A DNA stretch of 64,000 nt from contig NZ_BLTE01000010.1 of the NCBI RefSeq assembly GCF_013019105.1, positions 62,001-126,000 of the forward strand. The letters run 5' to 3'. Both the position numbers and the translations under genes were made by a program. Shown here in pieces: positions 7,047 to 48,673 of the stretch. This DNA is from Fundidesulfovibrio magnetotacticus. GTDB taxonomy: Bacteria > Desulfobacterota > Desulfovibrionia > Desulfovibrionales > Desulfovibrionaceae. The stretch's first letter is position 1, and every line of letters starts with the position of its first letter. The notes beneath the pieces are model-generated. The model was not told where the DNA came from. It saw only the letters and a list, made by a program, of their open reading frames with translations, and made no database searches.

Positions 7047-7122
7047 GGGCCTATAGCTCAGTTGGCAGAGCTTCCGGCTCATAACCGGGTGGTCCCAGGT
7101 TCGAATCCTGGTGGGCCCACCA
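7047..7122 (+). tRNA. tRNA with CAT anticodon (elongator Met or lysidine-type Ile2)
   Basis: A full cloverleaf of 76 nt with encoded CCA. The acceptor stem GGGCCTA/TGGGCCC pairs throughout, with one G-U. The anticodon loop CTCATAA sits on a 5-bp stem and the T loop is TTCGAAT. The normal 1-72 G-C pair excludes initiator tRNA. The acceptor stem closely matches that usual for tRNA-Ile(GAT) and has C4-G69 and C5-G68, as in E. coli tRNA-Ile2. It may therefore be the AUA-decoding isoleucine tRNA whose C34 becomes lysidine, rather than methionine. Confidence 0.95.
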
Positions 7123-9206: not shown

Positions 9207-9586
9207 AGGTTCGGGGAGTCGGACAGGCTGTCGCCGCGGGGAAACCCGGGGAGGAAAGTCCGGACTCCGCAGGGCAGGACGCTGGGTAACCCCCAGGGGG
9301 AGCGATCCCCGGAGAAGCGCCACAGAAAGCAAACCGCCGGCCGGGTCCACCCGGCCGGTAAGGGTGAAACGGTGGAGTAAGAGCCCACCAGTTGCCGCGG
9401 TGACGCGGCAAGCTAGGCATGCCCCGTCCGGAGCAAGACCAAATAGGGAAGCGTTCGAGGCCGGCCCGGCCGAGCTTCCGGGTAGGTTGCTGGAGGCGGC
9501 GGGCAACCGCCGTCCTAGAGGAATGACAGCCGCCGTCCCGCAAGGGGCGGTTACAGAATCCGGCTTACGTCCGGCTCCCCTTACAC
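9207..9586 (+). ncRNA. rnpB: RNase P RNA (class A)
   Basis: The catalytic RNA of RNase P, which matures tRNA 5' ends. The invariant core is present in order: GAGGAAAGTCCGG near 9251, CAGGGCAGG-type and CCACAGAAA elements, GGTAAGGGTGAAA near 9357, CAAGACCAAATAGGG near 9435, GGGTAGGTTGCTGGAG near 9480, and ACAGAATCCGGCTTA near 9553. Helix P1 closes perfectly: GGGGAGTCGGAC at 9213-9224 pairs with GTCCGGCTCCCC at 9569-9580. Ends are set by P1 and are approximate by a few bases. No T-run terminator follows; ispDF starts 13 bases after P1. Confidence 0.96.
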
Positions 9587-9593
9587 CTTCATC

Positions 9594-10820
9594 ATGAACA
9601 CCTGGATCGTCCTTCTCGCCGCCGGCAGCGGCTCCCGGCTGGCAGCCGCCTCGGGCGGCGCGAAAAAACAGTTCCTGGACGCGGGCGGCTCGCCCGTGTT
9701 CTGGCGCTCGGCCCAGGCCCTGGCCCGCTGCGCGGGCGTCTCCGGCATCGTCTTCGTCTTCCCTCCCGACGAACTGGACGCGGCCCGCGAGGCCGTCGAC
9801 ACCCTCGACGCGTCAGCGCCCCTCGGGCTCGACCGGCGCGTGGTCCACGGCGGCGCGCGCCGCCAGGATTCACTGGAGAACGCCCTCTCCGCCCTGCCCC
9901 GGGAGTGCACCCACGTGCTCGTGCACGACGCGGCGCGCTGCTTCGTCACCCCGGACGTGGCCGCACGGGTCCTGGAGGCCCTGCGATCCGGGGCCAAGGC
10001 CGTCATTCCCGCCGTGCCCGTCAAGGACACCGTGAAGCAGGTGGACGCCCAGGGCGTGGTGGTCGCCACGCCCGAGCGCGCCAGCCTCAGGGCCGTGCAG
10101 ACCCCACAGGGCGTGGAACTGGAAGCCCTGCGCGCCGGGTTCGCGCTGGCCCGGCGCGAAAACCTCACCGTCACCGACGACGCGGGCCTCGTGGAGGCCC
10201 TGGGCCTGCCCGTGTCCGTGGTGGAAGGCTCGGAAGCCAACGTGAAGATCACCACTCCGGAAGACCTGCGCCTGCTCGCCCCGGCCCGGGTCCCGGCCGC
10301 CCTGCCCCGCGTGGGCTTCGGCTACGACGTGCACCGCTACGCCTCCGAGGCCGAGGCCGACGCCCCCAACGCCCGGCCCATGGTCCTGGGCTGCGCGCCC
10401 ATCCCCGGCGCGCCGCGCGTGCTGGCCCACTCCGACGGCGACGTGCTCCTGCACGCCCTGGCAGACGCCCTCCTGGGCTGCCTCTGCCTGGGCGACATCG
10501 GCCAGCACTTCCCGGACACGGACCCCTCCCTCTCCGGGGCCGCAAGCTCCGTGCTGGTGGCCGAGATCCTGGCCCGCTTCGCGCCCGCGGGGCTCGCGCT
10601 GGTGCACGTGGACCTCACCGTGGTGGCCCAGGTCCCCAAGGTGGGGCCGCACCGGGAGCACATCCGGCGCAACGTGGCCGGGCTGCTGGGCCTTGCCCCG
10701 GAGCGCGTCAACGTGAAGGCGACCACCGAGGAAAAGCTCGGCTTCACGGGCCGCAAGCAGGGCATCAAGGCCTACGCCACGGCCACCGCGGTGGAGACCG
10801 GAGCCCCCCGCGCGGACTGA
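9594..10820 (+). CDS. ispDF: Bifunctional IspD/IspF isoprenoid enzyme
   Basis: A 408-residue fusion for two steps of the MEP pathway. The N-terminal IspD domain (about 1-226) makes CDP-methylerythritol and shows LLAAGSGSRL, VHDAARCF and VKDTVKQV. The C-terminal IspF domain (about 235-400) makes the cyclic diphosphate and shows GYDVHRY, HSDGDVLLHAL and FPDTDPS, the zinc and substrate motifs. Such fusions are normal in delta- and alphaproteobacteria. The ATG at 9594 gives the exact family N terminus but lacks any ribosome binding site and lies 13 bases after RNase P helix P1. Confidence 0.95.
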   Translation: MNTWIVLLAAGSGSRLAAASGGAKKQFLDAGGSPVFWRSAQALARCAGVSGIVFVFPPDELDAAREAVDTLDASAPLGLDRRVVHGGARRQDSLENALSALPRECTHVLVHDAARCFVTPDVAARVLEALRSGAKAVIPAVPVKDTVKQVDAQGVVVATPERASLRAVQTPQGVELEALRAGFALARRENLTVTDDAGLVEALGLPVSVVEGSEANVKITTPEDLRLLAPARVPAALPRVGFGYDVHRYASEAEADAPNARPMVLGCAPIPGAPRVLAHSDGDVLLHALADALLGCLCLGDIGQHFPDTDPSLSGAASSVLVAEILARFAPAGLALVHVDLTVVAQVPKVGPHREHIRRNVAGLLGLAPERVNVKATTEEKLGFTGRKQGIKAYATATAVETGAPRAD

Positions 10821-30931: not shown

Positions 30932-31258
30932 ATGACGTACACCGCCCGCCGATACGCCTTTGAAGATGGCAAGGAGCCTTTCAGCCTGTGGTTCAAAGCC
31001 TTGCGCGACTTCCGGGCCAAGGCCGCGATCCTGAAGCGGATCGAGCGCCTTGAAGCGGGCAATTTCGGCGCTGCCAAACCATGCCGGAACGGAGTGCATG
31101 AATTGGTGGTGGATTTCGGGCCAGGGTACAGAGTCTATTACGGCCTGGTGGGGAAGGAGATCGTCCTGTTGCTCTGCGCCGGGGACAAAAGGACGCAGCA
31201 GGCCGACATAGACAGGGCCATCAGCTATTTGGACGACTACAGGGAGCGTACGCGGTGA
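30932..31258 (+). CDS. higB: HigB/RelE-type addiction module toxin
   Basis: A 108-residue toxin of the RelE/HigB-2 type (addiction module killer protein), expected to cut mRNA on the ribosome. Features: FSLWFKALRDFRAKAAILKRIERL helices, the NGVHELVVDFGPGYRVYYGLVG core with conserved Arg and Tyr, and LLLCAGDKRTQQADI near the C terminus. There is no Shine-Dalgarno sequence before the ATG. The gene overlaps the antitoxin by 4 nt (GTGA). Toxin-first order is typical of hig loci. Confidence 0.88.
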   Translation: MTYTARRYAFEDGKEPFSLWFKALRDFRAKAAILKRIERLEAGNFGAAKPCRNGVHELVVDFGPGYRVYYGLVGKEIVLLLCAGDKRTQQADIDRAISYLDDYRERTR

Positions 31259-31581
31259 AATCTGCATGCAGGGCCAGTGTGAGCCATCATGACGCCGTGG
31301 TCCGGGAACTGCGGGAAGACCCGGAACTGGCGTTCGAATACCTGAAGGCCACTCTGGAGGAAGAGGACGAGGTTGCGCTCCGGCTGGGGCTTCGCCGTCT
31401 GGTGCAGGCCTATGGCGCGGCGGAGGTGGCCGGAAAGGCCGGACTGCGCAGGGAAAATCTCTACCGGGCGCTCTCTCCTGGCGGCAATCCCACCCTGAAG
31501 ACGCTTACGTCCATCCTGCGGGCCTTGGGCCTGCGCCTGAGCGTGGAGCGCATCCAGAGCGACGCCCAGGCGGGTTGCTGA
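31255..31581 (+). CDS. higA: HigA-type addiction module antitoxin
   Basis: A 108-residue DNA-binding antitoxin. The C-terminal half is a helix-turn-helix (AEVAGKAGLRRENLYRALSPGGNPTL, about 62-87) of the HigA-2/antidote type; LTSILRALGLRLSVERI follows. The N-terminal acidic part (LREDPELAFEYLKATLEEED) would contact the toxin. It starts at GTG overlapping the higB stop, with GGGAG upstream. It probably represses its own promoter through the TGTATC/GATACA repeat. Confidence 0.88.
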   Translation: MKSACRASVSHHDAVVRELREDPELAFEYLKATLEEEDEVALRLGLRRLVQAYGAAEVAGKAGLRRENLYRALSPGGNPTLKTLTSILRALGLRLSVERIQSDAQAGC

Positions 31582-44670: not shown

Positions 44671-46077
44671 ATGGCCAGACAAGTCATCATTCTCCACGGC
44701 TGGAGCGACAGCTCCAAATCCTTCAAAGCCTTGGCAAAATTTCTGGATGAGCACGGGTTCACTCCCCACGCCGTACACCTTGGAGACTATATCTCCATGG
44801 ACGACGAGGTGCGCGTGGAAGACGTGAGCCGCCGCATGCGCGACGTCATCCGCCAGCGTCAGGATGAAGGAACGATCGACGCGTCTTTCGACATGATCGT
44901 GCACTCCACCGGAGGCCTCGTGGCCAGGCAGTGGATCGCCGACCTGGCGGGTCTGGGCCTGCCCTGCCCCCTGAAGCGTCTGGTCATGCTCGCCCCGGCC
45001 AATTTCGGCTCCGCCCTTGCGGTCAAGGGCAAGAGCCTGCTTGGACGCATCCTCAAGGGAGGGGGCAACTGGTTCCAGACGGGCAAGGCCATGCTGGACG
45101 CCCTGGAGTTGGCCTCCCCCTACCAGTGGAAGCTTGCGAGCCAGGACCTCTTTGTCCCGGCGGGGAAATCCGACGCACCCTCGCCCTACGGCGACGAGGG
45201 GGTGTGGCCCTTCGTGGTCGTCGGCAGCCACCCCTATTCCGATCTCCTGCGCAAGATCGTCAACGAGAACGGCTCGGACGGCACCGTGCGGGTCTGCGCA
45301 GCCAACCTCAACGCCCGGGGCATGACCATCGACTTCAGCTCGGACCCCGAAAACCCCGAAGTCACGCCCTGGACCTTGCGCAATCCTGAGTTGCGCATGC
45401 CCCTGGCCGTACTGCTGGACAGGGACCACGGCTCGATCACCCGGCCCGACACGAAGGGCGTTAACGCCGGAGACCCCAATCTGTTGGGGGAACTCATCCT
45501 CCAGGCCCTGCGCTGCGGCGATCTCAACGAGTACTCGGCCATCGGCCAGCAGTGGGACGCCATCACCGAGGGGACCGGACGCCTCGCGGGAGACAAGAAT
45601 TCGAACAAGGACAGCCGGGCCTTCTACCACCAGTACTTCCAGGTGGTGGTCCGGGCCGTGGACGACCAGGGCAACGATATCGAAGATTTCTTCCTGGAGT
45701 TCGGTGGGGCAGACAAGAACGACCGGCTCACCGGCATCTTTCACACGGAGGTGCTGGAGAAGGTCAGCCCCAACCAGACCAACCCGGCTTTGCGTTGCCT
45801 CTACGTGGACCGCAACGACCTCTTCGAACTCTACTACGACCAGATCAAAGACCCGACCAACAAGGTGCTCACCCTCACCGTAAGCGCTGCTCCCCCCGGC
45901 CCCAACGTCGCCTACCTGAACCAGGGACAGGGTCGGATCAAGGTGCACAGCGAGCATGTCGACGTCCGCGACAATCTGGGAGAGTTACGCATGAGGCGCA
46001 ACACGACGCACTTCCTCAAACTCGTGATCCCGCGCACGCCCAAGGACGATGTTTTCAAACTCAGAGTAGCGCCTTAA
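44671..46077 (+). CDS. Alpha/beta-hydrolase (lipase/esterase-like) with C-terminal extension
   Basis: A 468-residue protein. The N-terminal 250 residues look like an alpha/beta hydrolase: VIILHGWSDSSKSF (oxyanion HG), then DMIVHSTGGLVARQW as nucleophile elbow, where Ser sits in VHSTG rather than GxSxG, and DRDHGSITRP as a possible catalytic Asp/His. The remaining 200 residues are beta-rich without a known domain. No signal peptide. AGGGAGG decides the ATG at 44671. Monocistronic with terminators on both sides. Substrate unknown. Confidence 0.75.
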   Translation: MARQVIILHGWSDSSKSFKALAKFLDEHGFTPHAVHLGDYISMDDEVRVEDVSRRMRDVIRQRQDEGTIDASFDMIVHSTGGLVARQWIADLAGLGLPCPLKRLVMLAPANFGSALAVKGKSLLGRILKGGGNWFQTGKAMLDALELASPYQWKLASQDLFVPAGKSDAPSPYGDEGVWPFVVVGSHPYSDLLRKIVNENGSDGTVRVCAANLNARGMTIDFSSDPENPEVTPWTLRNPELRMPLAVLLDRDHGSITRPDTKGVNAGDPNLLGELILQALRCGDLNEYSAIGQQWDAITEGTGRLAGDKNSNKDSRAFYHQYFQVVVRAVDDQGNDIEDFFLEFGGADKNDRLTGIFHTEVLEKVSPNQTNPALRCLYVDRNDLFELYYDQIKDPTNKVLTLTVSAAPPGPNVAYLNQGQGRIKVHSEHVDVRDNLGELRMRRNTTHFLKLVIPRTPKDDVFKLRVAP

Positions 46078-46175
46078 GGAGACGGTGTTCCGGCGGCTAG
46101 GGGATGCCCCCCAGACCCGCAATAGCCTCACAGGTTCCAAAGGGAACGACGACTGAGAGATGGAGAATGCATCCG

Positions 46176-46227
46176 GCCGCCGAGCGACGCTGGCTTGTCC
46201 AGCGCCGTTCGGCGGCAGGTTCTTTTG
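46176..46227 (+). terminator. Terminator-like hairpin after the hydrolase gene
   Basis: GCCGCCGA (46176-46183) pairs with TCGGCGGC (46209-46216), enclosing a second stem CGCTGG/CCAGCG; AGGTTCTTTTG follows. It lies between convergent genes and probably ends the hydrolase transcript. Confidence 0.55.
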
Positions 46228-46246
46228 ATCAGGGGAGTACGCGGAG

Positions 46247-47650
46247 CTAGGCGGTGAACTCGAAGGTGGTCTCCACGCCCTCGTCCCAGCCGTCCCAGAG
46301 GAAGTCGTCCGCGCGCCCGTCCGCGATCAGCCGGAAGGCGTAGCGGGCCTGTTCCTCGTAGAAGCGGCAGAAAGCGCCCTTGCGGTCCATGCCGCCGTTC
46401 ATCTCGGCGGCCTCGGCCGGGCAGGGCGAGCCGCAGAAGTGCCGCACGGCGCAGCGCGAGCACTCCTCAATGTCCTCCACCTTGCGCCCGGTCACGGCCT
46501 TGAAGGGCGCGCTCTCCAGGATGTCGCCCAGGCTGTCGGCGAAGAGGTTGCCGCCCCGCCAGTCGGGCAGGCCGATGAACTCGCTGCAGGGGAACACGTC
46601 GCCGCCCGGGGCGAGGGCGAAGAAGCAGCGGCCGCCGCCGCAAGGCGAGATGTCGCACATCAGGCGGCGCGCCGTGGGGGCCAGGATCGCCAGCAGGATG
46701 TTGGCGAAGTTGCCCACCACGAGCTTGCGCCCGGTCTCTTTGTAGAGTTCGTGGGAGCGTTCCAGGGCCTTGACGAACCAGCGGGCCGCCAAATCCTCGT
46801 CAGGCTTGATCTTGCGCGCGCCGAGCAGGGTGCAGCGCACCATGTTCAGCAGGCAGGTTCCCACGCCGTGCTTGTGGAAGAACTCCACCACCTTGGGCAG
46901 GGTGCGAACGTTGCCTTCGGTGACCGTGCAGATGACGCTGAAGGCCGGATACCCGGCAAGCTTCTCCATGGCCCACAGCACCTTGCGCGAAACGCCCTCC
47001 CCGCCCCAGGTGACGCGGGCGCGGTCGGCCACGGCGGCGCTGGCCCCGTCCAGGGAGACGCCCACGCCCACGCCGTGCCCGGTGAGGAAGGCGATGGCCT
47101 CTTCGTCCAGGAGCGTGGCGTTGGTCTGGATGCCGAAGCGGAAATGATCCCGATGGCGCTCGATGCCCGCGAACATGGCTTCCCGGTTGAGCAAAGGTTC
47201 CGCCCCGTGGAACACCACCTGGGGGCGCGTGCCCTCCGGGAGCGTGGCGTCGAAGTGGGCCTTGAGCCTGTCCAGGGCTTCCAGAAGGCGTTCTCGGGAC
47301 ATGTGCTCGCCGCCGGAACGCATCGCTGCCGGGATGTAGCAGTAGGCGCAGTTGAGGTTGCAGCGCTCGGTGGGGTTGAAATAGACCGCCGAGGGCGTGA
47401 GCCCGAAGCGCAGGCGGCGCATCTCCTCGGCGAAGCGGTCGGCCTGGGAGGCATAGGCCTTCATGAACTTGCGGCTGGCGAGGGTCTGTCCCAGCTTCTC
47501 GGTGCGTACCAGGGCCCAAAAGGCCGTGTCGGGGTCCACCACGGCCATGTAGTCGCGGTGGCCGATGTCCACGGGTTGGAGCGCGGGGCCGGAGCCGGTG
47601 TTGAAGTGGCGGCCCCTCTCCGGGGCCGCCTGATTGCTCGTGGAAGGCAT
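46247..47650 (-). CDS. cbpB: Peptide-modifying radical SAM/SPASM enzyme (CbpB-like)
   Basis: A 467-residue radical SAM enzyme. The core [4Fe-4S] site is Cys97, Cys101 and Cys104 in ERCNLNCAYCYIP. VVFHGAEPLLN is the GGEP-like SAM motif. The C-terminal third is a SPASM domain with many Cys (MCDISPCGGGRC, FPCSEFIG, CSRCAVRHFCGSPCP) for two auxiliary clusters. This build is typical of enzymes that crosslink or epimerise ribosomal peptides. It starts 2 bases after the 33-residue peptide gene, with AAGAAG as a weak ribosome binding site, so it is probably coupled. The whole unit lies under a cobalamin riboswitch. I recall this pair as CbpA/CbpB; the name is from memory. Confidence 0.85.
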   Translation of the reverse strand: MPSTSNQAAPERGRHFNTGSGPALQPVDIGHRDYMAVVDPDTAFWALVRTEKLGQTLASRKFMKAYASQADRFAEEMRRLRFGLTPSAVYFNPTERCNLNCAYCYIPAAMRSGGEHMSRERLLEALDRLKAHFDATLPEGTRPQVVFHGAEPLLNREAMFAGIERHRDHFRFGIQTNATLLDEEAIAFLTGHGVGVGVSLDGASAAVADRARVTWGGEGVSRKVLWAMEKLAGYPAFSVICTVTEGNVRTLPKVVEFFHKHGVGTCLLNMVRCTLLGARKIKPDEDLAARWFVKALERSHELYKETGRKLVVGNFANILLAILAPTARRLMCDISPCGGGRCFFALAPGGDVFPCSEFIGLPDWRGGNLFADSLGDILESAPFKAVTGRKVEDIEECSRCAVRHFCGSPCPAEAAEMNGGMDRKGAFCRFYEEQARYAFRLIADGRADDFLWDGWDEGVETTFEFTA

Positions 47651-47652
47651 CG

Positions 47653-47754
47653 CTACTTCTTGGGGTCCATGAGGATGTAGTGGGACAGGCCGACGCCGTC
47701 GGCCTTGCAGGACTTGCGGACGGCGATCACGTCCTTCTTGTGTTTGCCTTTCAT
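47653..47754 (-). CDS. cbpA: Precursor peptide of the riboswitch-controlled RiPP system (CbpA-like)
   Basis: A 33-residue peptide. Residues 1-14 are Lys-rich (MKGKHKKDVIAVRK), followed by SCKADGVGLSHYILMDPKK with a single Cys at 16 and a Gly-x-Gly at 20-22. GGAGGAAGC gives an optimal ribosome binding site, which strongly supports translation of so short a frame. It lies directly downstream of a riboswitch terminator and 2 bases before the radical SAM gene. It has no signal peptide and no double-Gly cleavage site. Its likely role is substrate of the radical SAM enzyme; the modification and final product are unknown. Confidence 0.8.
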   Translation of the reverse strand: MKGKHKKDVIAVRKSCKADGVGLSHYILMDPKK

Positions 47755-47780
47755 GCTTCCTCCGTGGCTGGGGTTGCGAC

Positions 47781-47817
47781 AAAAAAAAGGTTCCGGCAGG
47801 AAGAACCTGCCGGAACC
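47781..47817 (-). terminator. Riboswitch expression platform: intrinsic terminator
   Basis: On the minus strand GGTTCCGGCAGG pairs perfectly with CCTGCCGGAACC (12 bp, 5-base loop) and is followed by eight T. It sits between the cobalamin aptamer and the peptide gene, 27 bases before its ATG, so control is by premature termination. Confidence 0.92.
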
Positions 47818-47843
47818 CTTTGCCTTCAGGTTCCGATGGGGCG

Positions 47844-47999
47844 GCGTTTCGACAGGTCTTCTGGCTTCCGGATCCTCCGCGCGGGGACGGCCTTCCCGGG
47901 GAAACCCCCAGTGACCGGCTTTCGCCATGTCCTCCCGCGTCCCCGGTTACAGCGACGGGTTCGCCACGGATTCGCACCGTGTTCCGAGATGTCGAACGC
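47844..47999 (-). ncRNA. Cobalamin (B12) riboswitch aptamer
   Basis: Read on the minus strand, conserved AdoCbl-aptamer pieces occur in order. P1 GCGTTCGAC opens at 47999. ACGGTGCGAATCCGTGG follows, then GCGAACCCGTCGCTGTAA (the B12-box/core region near 47950), a variable arm, and GAAGCCAGAAGACCTG, close to the AGCCAGGAGACCTGCC consensus, near 47853-47870. The closing P1 strand GTCGAAACGC ends at 47844. Usual cobalamin riboswitches lower expression when the ligand is bound. Here the controlled genes are a peptide and its modifying enzyme rather than B12 synthesis or uptake. Confidence 0.93.
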
Positions 48000-48009
48000 A
48001 AACAGAGGG

Positions 48010-48038
48010 TTGATACCCTCTCGCGGTCCGAAGGTCAA
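48010..48038 (-). promoter_or_regulatory. Promoter of the riboswitch transcript
   Basis: On the minus strand TTGACC (48033-48038), exactly 17 bases, then TATCAA (48010-48015). The start would fall near 48003, a few bases before the aptamer P1 helix. The -10 sits inside a 7-bp inverted repeat (AGAGGGT/ACCCTCT, 48004-48021). Confidence 0.7.
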
Positions 48039-48046
48039 ACCTCGGG

Positions 48047-48673
48047 CTACTTCCTGCCGAATTCCTGGAGCACGGCGTTGTGGCCGTGGGTGTCGGTGAT
48101 GCGCACGAAATAGGCCACCTCGGGGGAGTACCAGAGGGTGTAGGTTCCGCTCCAGCCGGTGGTGTTCCTCTTCTGCACTTTGATGCGGAAGGTCTTGAAG
48201 GTCCCGGCCGGGGTGGTGACCTCTTCGGAGGCCTCCACGGTGACGGTGTTGGTGTAGCTTGCGCTGCCCTTGGCCGTGCTTGCGTTCTGGGTGAAGGTCC
48301 GGGTCTGGCCCACGGCCAGGGGGAAGAAGATGTAGGCGTCGGTTCCCGAATCCACGGAGTAGGCCAGCAGCGAACCGTTGGAGCTCCTGACGGAGAGGTC
48401 GCGCCCGAGCACGGCCTTGCGGGCCTGGTCGCCGTCGCCGGTCAGGACGATCTCGTCGCCCACGGAACGCACCTCCATGCGCTCGGCCAGGGCGTAGGGG
48501 CTCCTGGTCTTGGCGGAGAAGCGCCACCAGTCGCCGGTTTTCCACTGGGGGGCCTGGGCGGCGGGCAGCGGGGCCACCTCGGTATGGCGCGAGGCGCATC
48601 CCGCAAGGGACAGGGCCAGAACCAGGAGCAGCAGAACGCTGAGAGGCCGGACGGATGGGGCGTTAGTCGTCAT
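48047..48673 (-). CDS. Lipoprotein of unknown function
   Basis: A 208-residue lipoprotein: LLLLVLALSLAGCASRH gives a clear lipobox with Cys about 25 residues from the start. The mature part is beta-rich, with WKTGDWWRFSAKTRSPY and GTYTLWYSPEVAYFVRITDTHG, a pattern like outer-membrane-anchored DUF proteins. The ATG at 48673 overlaps the end of the upstream gene by 11 bases, so the two are one operon. It ends 9 bases before the riboswitch promoter begins; linkage to the peptide system is only positional. Confidence 0.75.
   Translation of the reverse strand: MTTNAPSVRPLSVLLLLVLALSLAGCASRHTEVAPLPAAQAPQWKTGDWWRFSAKTRSPYALAERMEVRSVGDEIVLTGDGDQARKAVLGRDLSVRSSNGSLLAYSVDSGTDAYIFFPLAVGQTRTFTQNASTAKGSASYTNTVTVEASEEVTTPAGTFKTFRIKVQKRNTTGWSGTYTLWYSPEVAYFVRITDTHGHNAVLQEFGRK

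Follow-up and report, generated by a model that had tools for sequence, protein, structure and literature searches.

The gene pair described here lies in a stretch of 64,000 nucleotides of Fundidesulfovibrio magnetotacticus (assembly GCF_013019105.1, contig NZ_BLTE01000010.1, positions 62,001 to 126,000 of the forward strand), hereafter the window. On its minus strand, between positions 46247 and 48038, a promoter-like sequence, a cobalamin aptamer, a terminator, a ribosome binding site (RBS), the peptide gene cbpA and the enzyme gene cbpB follow one another in the order of transcription. The pair almost certainly belongs to the catalogued CbpA/CbpB family, whose NCBIfam models TIGR04164 (CbpA) and TIGR04163 (CbpB) give neither product nor function in their names; to our knowledge no function has been assigned to it. 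As such the locus is an ordinary member of its family, and what is new is a link to corrinoid metabolism, drawn from gene context, a tree and presence/absence comparisons. The repeated position of such pairs among genes of vitamin B12 synthesis and salvage suggests that the peptide serves B12 metabolism. Here we present a description of the locus and its relatives, together with an interpretation in which CbpA is the precursor of a ribosomally synthesized and post-translationally modified peptide (RiPP).

Organization of the locus

The aptamer (47856-47985) matches model positions 47-167 of the cobalamin riboswitch RF00174 with 74.5 bits in cmscan (gathering threshold 31.5, E 1.6e-16), so the covariance-model check proposed in a first-pass annotation of the sequence found the element that it had named. 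Upstream, the same annotation had placed a promoter; a sequence TTGACC-17-TATCAA at 48010-48038 is plausible when read by eye, but the consensus promoter scan reported none there. Downstream of the aptamer, a terminator scan and folding identified an intrinsic terminator hairpin of 16 pairs followed by a T run (47785-47821), its stem being the longest among nine terminator-like sites on the two strands of 46000-48300 (mean of 2.1 sites in shuffled sequences); the fold of 47825-47775 has -31.4 kcal/mol. Folding with the 3' arm of the terminator omitted yields a candidate anti-terminator (47810-47835), in which CGGAACC has the potential to pair with GGGTTCCG in the 5' arm of the terminator. This alternative helix comprises 9 pairs in the window versus 5.6 in shuffles. 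Across 60 loci the excess is small (6.8 versus 5.9 pairs, with 42 of the 60 exceeding their own shuffles), and the anti-terminator is a weak candidate only.

The RBS GGAGGAA (47757-47763) stands just 5' of the ATG of cbpA (47653-47754), which encodes a precursor peptide of 33 amino acids with the core R-x2-C-x5-G-L-S-H-Y, recognized by TIGR04164 and by the same core in relatives. cbpB (46247-47650) begins 2 bases 3' of the cbpA stop codon and encodes a predicted peptide-modifying radical S-adenosylmethionine (SAM)/SPASM enzyme of 467 amino acids. The layout of aptamer, strong terminator, 33-codon peptide gene with RBS and closely following enzyme gene is thus present as first described.

Loci compared and the riboswitch in relatives

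CbpB loci were obtained from whole-genome searches (38 loci, L005-L042, the window's own being L016) and from a named collection, which returned 80 loci; 58 of these (L063-L120) were taken as CbpB loci, and the remaining 22, distant relatives, as controls. Two near-identical pairs, L029/L102 and L030/L120, span both sources. Of 395 genomes sampled from the home phylum, 36 carry a CbpB scoring over its cut-off (G042 by a fragment), as do 10 of 59 relatives; these 10 include five of the seven from the genus, counting the window's.

The pair is preceded by a same-strand aptamer in 85 of 101 CbpB loci: in the window, in 35 of the 37 other whole-genome loci (Rfam), in all five further loci L178-L182 (model R1) and in 44 of the 58 named loci (R1), with 364-888 bases between aptamer start and cbpB match. 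Since eight of the nine aptamers behind R1 come from cbpAB loci, this model leans to the group, whereas the 35 of 37 rest on Rfam alone. None of the 22 control loci around other radical SAM genes has an aptamer. A strict B12-box match occurs upstream in 65 of 93 peptide-bearing loci, followed by a terminator-like hairpin in 60 of the 65.

Twelve of the 16 aptamer-less loci lie in or beside B12 gene clusters. L008 and L009 are inside large cob operons, as is visible in the longer stretches L145 and L146; nine have an adjoining same-strand B12 gene (L067, L071, L075, L076, L077, L081, L105, L109 and L116); and L078 fails the adjacent-gene test, yet sits in a cluster of btuFCD/btuR type. L114 stops at a contig edge. 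A full Rfam scan gave no match in L067, L071, L077 and L109, nor in L065, L087 and L107. It is very probable that the pair is under B12 control.

The home genome holds four cobalamin riboswitches in a whole-genome search. Apart from the one at cbpAB, one precedes an open reading frame (ORF) for CbiK that is followed by a FecCD-like ORF (by eye), one a CobT-like ORF (by eye), and one what appears, by eye, to be an anaerobic ribonucleotide reductase with its activase.

Gene neighborhood

Neighborhoods were compared in 99 loci, namely the window, the 58 named loci and 40 longer stretches from the whole-genome set; the 86 loci amenable to grouping include five pairs of near-duplicates (CbpB identity ≥92%). 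Flanks were searched up to 10 kb, shorter at contig ends, with a reference set of cob, cbi, cobalt-transport and related proteins drawn from the loci themselves. Genes of B12 type lie at most 10 kb away in 26 of the 99 loci, and at least two kinds of them in 20. The corresponding counts for control radical SAM loci are 1 of 22 distant loci and 0 of 20 other radical SAM loci in CbpB-positive genomes (26/99 versus the pooled 1/42, Fisher p = 0.0007). The sole positive control, L121, owes its count to CbiB; this locus, kept in the control counts, itself has an ORF resembling CbpA and a disrupted frame resembling CbpB.

Gene orders with cbpAB embedded in such clusters are cobQ-cbiB-btuR-cbiA-cbiC-cbpAB-cbiM-cbiN(?)-cbiQ-ABC-cbiD in L071, cobQ-btuR-cbiA-cbiC-cbpAB-chelatase-cbiM in L146, and cobT-cobS-cbiB-cobD-(AsnB-like)-cbpAB-DUF71-btuF-btuC-ABC-btuR-TonB receptor in L116. 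Pfam confirmed ten representatives of the neighbor families, and neighbors named CbiM, CbiQ, HoxN/NixA-type transporter, CobQ, BluB and CobD score over their NCBIfam cut-offs; names beyond these Pfam and NCBIfam checks were given by eye. The short chelatase and the DUF71-like neighbor score below their NCBIfam cut-offs, the ORF taken for CbiN has no NCBIfam match, and the neighbor cluster called CobQ also contains proteins of CobD type. The neighboring ORF labelled BzaF scores as ThiC in NCBIfam.

In a quick tree of 94 CbpB rows, 23 rows were labelled for a B12-type gene within about 5 kb (L078 by hand). The label requires 13 changes on the tree, of which starred branches force at least 10; shuffles require 20.7 on average. 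The association with B12 genes is clustered on the tree, yet has been gained or broken many times. The place of the product in B12 metabolism that the first-pass annotation had suggested is supported by gene context, controls and tree, and a role of some kind there is likely.

In L121, from Methanomicrobia archaeon LH_S13, positions 9790-10544 carry the CbpA-like ORF (R-x2-C-x6-GLSHY) directly before a CbpB-like frame of 214 amino acids, which is without part of the core and without the SPASM end; the CbiB match lies 5.7 kb away. It looks like a decayed archaeal copy of cbpAB, or an assembly fault. In L076 and L078 a second small radical-SAM-like ORF (242 and 294 amino acids, by eye) stands downstream of cbpB in a salvage-type cluster.

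Cobalamin genes of the carrier genomes

CbiD served as the marker for the anaerobic ring pathway and was sought in 40 of 44 CbpB-positive genomes, with G005, G042, G400 and G442 omitted as incomplete. It was found in 39 of these 40 home-phylum genomes, the exception being G434, and in 23 of 58 CbpB-negative genomes (Fisher 5e-10, relatedness ignored). The 58 have a completeness of ≥95% and were taken in handle order up to G107, leaving out the genomes of a hand-picked set, G016 (CbpB-like fragments), G076 (home family) and G047. Eight genomes of the hand-picked set fall in the order up to G110, three of them with CbiD, and their inclusion gives 26 of 66. The hand-picked CbpB-negative genomes, mostly of related families, have CbiD in 25 of 38 (Fisher 2e-4, relatedness likewise ignored).

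CbpAB was rejected as a replacement for cobalt import or chelation, since the frequencies are alike with and without CbpB: 39 of 40 CbpB-positive versus 25 of 25 CbpB-negative genomes for CbiM, and 37 of 40 versus 24 of 25 for CbiK over its cut-off, the CbpB-negative genomes having been chosen for possession of CbiD. A substitution for the precorrin-6A reductase CbiJ was also rejected (CbiJ in 3 of 39 CbpB-positive and 3 of 41 CbpB-negative genomes). Among 80 home-phylum genomes, 79 with CbiD, only 6 have CbiJ (PF02571); its step may be carried out by a diverged form or by a different enzyme.

The search across phyla covered the genomes behind 50 of the 58 named loci, mostly metagenome bins. 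CbiD is present in 34 of them and absent from 16, of which 14 also lack CbiC. These 14 carriers comprise all five members of the clade L075/L076/L078/L081/L116, in which cbpAB stands in salvage-type clusters and four of the five genomes are small (1.1-1.9 Mb), as well as the isolate Dechloromonas hankyongensis (L113, G497). BtuR is kept in 13 of the 14 and CobS in 11. Random gaps would not be expected to remove the ring genes and spare the late ones, and it is therefore probable that CbpAB acts on corrinoids once their ring is complete. Because carriers exist without ring genes, a role confined to the capture of cobalt for the ring is disfavored.

The CbpA peptide and the CbpB enzyme

CbpA matches TIGR04164 with 56.4 bits (cut-off 35, E 1.4e-15, model 1-25 of 25) and CbpB matches TIGR04163 with 687.8 bits (cut-off 375, model 1-428 of 428), both well above cut-off, in agreement with the family that the first-pass annotation had named. 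A CbpA ORF lies within about 600 bases upstream of the enzyme in 93 of 96 loci, the window included, so the peptide frame is retained where the enzyme is present; of the three misses, L075 and L114 are at contig edges and L107 has none. The core across loci, which come from 11 named phyla, is R-x2-C-x5-7-G-L-S-H-Y. Conservation of GL-x-H-Y is partly by construction, the search pattern requiring that motif or close forms. The CbpA peptide is under selection: the cysteine and the arginine three residues before it are invariant in 93 of 93 ORFs although six arginine codons are in use. There is one cysteine in 87 of the 93 peptides and one histidine in 81, and the residue at Cys+4 is glycine in 85.

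CbpB contains the Pfam domains Radical_SAM (PF04055) and SPASM (PF13186). An alignment of 73 rows (the window and 72 other loci) has the CX3CX2C triad C97/C101/C104 invariant, together with seven SPASM cysteines (C337-X12-G350-X4-C355; C397-X2-C400-X5-C406-X3-C410; C428), and C332 is invariant outside both groups. The general seven-cysteine pattern of SPASM domains is CX9-15GX4C-CX2CX5CX3C-C. The AlphaFold2 model of CbpB has a mean predicted local distance difference test score (pLDDT) of 90.2. Its top Foldseek matches include CteB, anaerobic sulfatase-maturating enzyme (AnSME), ChlB, TigE, SkfB and SuiB, and a profile search of PDB sequences placed CteB (5why, 5wgg) and the sulfatase-maturating enzyme first.

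PapB, CteB, DynA and the SCIFF maturase share with the CbpB of the window the radical SAM core and the seven-cysteine SPASM domain, CteB being the best fold match. The window's CbpB is, however, far below the cut-offs of the PapB, DynA and SCIFF models; the next-best NCBIfam models are PapB, a maturase of ranthipeptide type (125.7 bits versus a cut-off of 340), and DynA. CbpAB differs from these radical SAM/SPASM peptide maturation systems in the single cysteine of most precursors (87/93), and the CX3D spacing of PapB is absent from CbpA, where Cys+4 is glycine in 85 of 93. A thioether or His-Tyr link by resemblance to PapB or DynA was not adopted, given these scores and the Cys+4 glycine. The RiPP recognition element, an N-terminal winged-helix recognition domain, is known from CteB and SuiB. 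Residues 24-88 of CbpB folded alone give three strands and two helices (pLDDT 93.9), and these N-terminal 65 residues have no fold match in PDB at E 0.001.

Several variants of the enzyme were encountered. In L074:8533-9912 (Chloroflexi bin) an in-frame stop interrupts the CbpB frame, and the locus was omitted from alignment and tree. Contig 14 of G016 has, at 31057-31524, two short strong CbpB-like pieces in one open frame of 172 amino acids (98 and 84.8 bits), perhaps a remnant or a truncated gene. In the family of the window's genome, L043:990-2680 encodes an enzyme resembling CbpB that, at 218.8 bits, falls short of the cut-off of 375; the locus has no CbpA motif, and an open stretch of 90 amino acids with CHGHGHYH precedes the enzyme, perhaps as part of a sister peptide system.

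Proposed function and alternatives

Class of element and conserved layout suggest that, when cobalamin is plentiful, the aptamer would bind it and transcription would stop at the hairpin before cbpA, and that cbpA and cbpB would be transcribed when cobalamin is scarce. CbpB, a radical SAM enzyme with cysteines for two further iron-sulfur clusters, would then covalently alter the conserved core of CbpA. Corrinoids would be the target of the modified peptide, most likely intracellularly, at a step common to ring synthesis and salvage, with corrinoid hand-over, reduction to Co(I)/adenosylation and late assembly as candidate steps. For the whole chain, from cobalamin attenuation through modification of CbpA by CbpB to a product serving a shared corrinoid step, the odds appear about even. 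More narrowly, we tentatively propose, with a probability of roughly 0.4, that CbpA is the precursor of a RiPP acting as a dedicated corrinoid-handling factor, i.e. a ligand, reductant or carrier somewhere between uptake or ring synthesis and adenosylation.

Several observations weigh against this proposal. In 73 of the 99 loci, the window included, the flanks searched hold no B12-type gene, and two of the 26 positive loci (L150, L163) count through a tetrapyrrole methylase alone, possibly of siroheme synthesis. Both aptamer and B12 neighbor are missing from L065, L087 and L107, and from L107 the peptide as well. Two of the seven genus genomes have CbiD but no CbpB over cut-off, so CbpAB is dispensable. 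The cross-phylum carriers are mostly bins of unknown completeness, compared without CbpB-negative genomes of their phyla, and the ring-positive carrier G469 (0.9 Mb), one of four searched alongside, has neither BtuR nor CobS. Finally, the cobalt genes next to cbpAB in some operons (short chelatase, cbiM, cbiQ, nickel/cobalt transporter) would fit a role in cobalt metabolism.

Read in that way, the modified peptide would be an intracellular cobalt carrier or chaperone supplying the chelatase of ring synthesis with Co(II). The position of cbpAB in the large cob operons of L071, L145 and L146, where cbiC lies on one side and the short chelatase or cbiM on the other, the HoxN/NixA-type transporter after cbpB in L077, the CbiD of 39 of 40 home-phylum carriers and the mostly single cysteine and histidine of the peptides (87 and 81 of 93) all agree with it. 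It is nevertheless rather unlikely, as cbpAB occurs in genomes without CbiD and CbiC, including all five of the salvage-cluster clade and Dechloromonas hankyongensis, and CbiM and CbiK do not separate CbpB-positive from CbpB-negative genomes. PQQ (pyrroloquinoline quinone) and mycofactocin are small redox cofactors matured from peptides, and the adenosyltransferase BtuR needs Co(I). CbpA could likewise be matured into such a cofactor, or into a reductant, and so power a single corrinoid step, e.g. Co(II) to Co(I); a housekeeping product of this kind would fit one nearly invariant core in 11 named phyla and the BtuR kept in 13 of 14 ring-less carriers. We regard it as unlikely, because no dedicated peptidase or tailoring gene is found among those recurring neighbor clusters that are annotated, and as the missing precorrin-6A reductase it would not fit a CbiJ equally rare with and without CbpB (3/39 and 3/41).

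The first-pass annotation had instead suggested a scavenger of cobalt or corrinoids, or a signal; the peptide would then be exported. TonB-receptor-like and BtuFCD-like genes (by eye) downstream in L075, L081 and L116, and also in L076, would suit export, as would an ABC-ATPase (ATP-binding cassette) cluster that is the most frequent recurring neighbor (18 of 81 groups). Nine of the 18 ABC loci are, however, B12-context loci in which the gene is possibly CbiO or BtuD, and the members are scattered in position and occur on both strands. The enzyme aside, no gene within 9 kb in the window is found again in more than three of the seven close relatives compared (functions partly annotated). Overall, the proposal appears quite improbable. 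That the pair replaces a B12-dependent function under B12 shortage, in the manner of a B12-independent isozyme and with no part in making or handling B12, would be compatible with riboswitch control alone and has a parallel in the riboswitch before the apparent anaerobic ribonucleotide reductase genes of the home genome; the repeated placement of the pair inside cob and salvage-type operons makes it very improbable.

With the gene context, what was a peptide controlled by a B12 riboswitch becomes a hypothesis that can be tested, namely a corrinoid role of the modified peptide in carriers whether or not they possess ring genes. If the corrinoid-handling proposal is true, a RiPP would operate inside vitamin B12 metabolism in bacteria of at least 11 named phyla, with an apparently decayed copy in one archaeal record, and a peptide-derived component would join a pathway that is commonly depicted as consisting solely of enzymes and transporters.

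Related systems and further observations

Gene order and upstream cobalamin aptamer are the same in the window and its CbpA/CbpB relatives, and nothing essential differs. The family names CbpA/CbpB were not found in the open literature, a coverage outside which most subscription papers fall, and broader literature searches gave no title or abstract on the pair among the matches listed. The passages covered of PMC9600662, PMC9062424, PMC7689651, PMC3541065, PMC3543383, PMC8123684 and PMC2763108 contain no CbpA/CbpB peptide system; the string 'cbpa' in the passages of PMC2763108 and PMC8123684 is a fragment of DOI strings and was discarded.

Two systems are comparable in the kind of argument. 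The DUF71-B12 group, described in passages of PMC3541065 as an uncharacterized PP-loop ATPase with a predicted part in B12 salvage, is like CbpAB tied to B12 by its neighborhood, but is an ATPase with no peptide system; a DUF71-like ORF, below the cut-offs of its models, stands directly 3' of cbpB in L116. CobW, in the passages covered of PMC7689651, is a cobalt-supply GTPase of the late-insertion pathway with a CxCC motif, first suspected from cobalamin gene clusters. The gene-cluster argument is of the same kind for CbpAB, whereas CobW is a GTPase protein and no modified peptide (PMC7689651).

In the window the direct neighbors of the pair are a gene for a DUF3108-like protein upstream and an alpha/beta-hydrolase ORF downstream on the opposite strand; no exporter, protease or immunity gene is recognizable directly next to it, as had been noted before. 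Elsewhere the window contains an RNase P RNA of class A (9215-9582) and a tRNA-Met gene (7047-7122).

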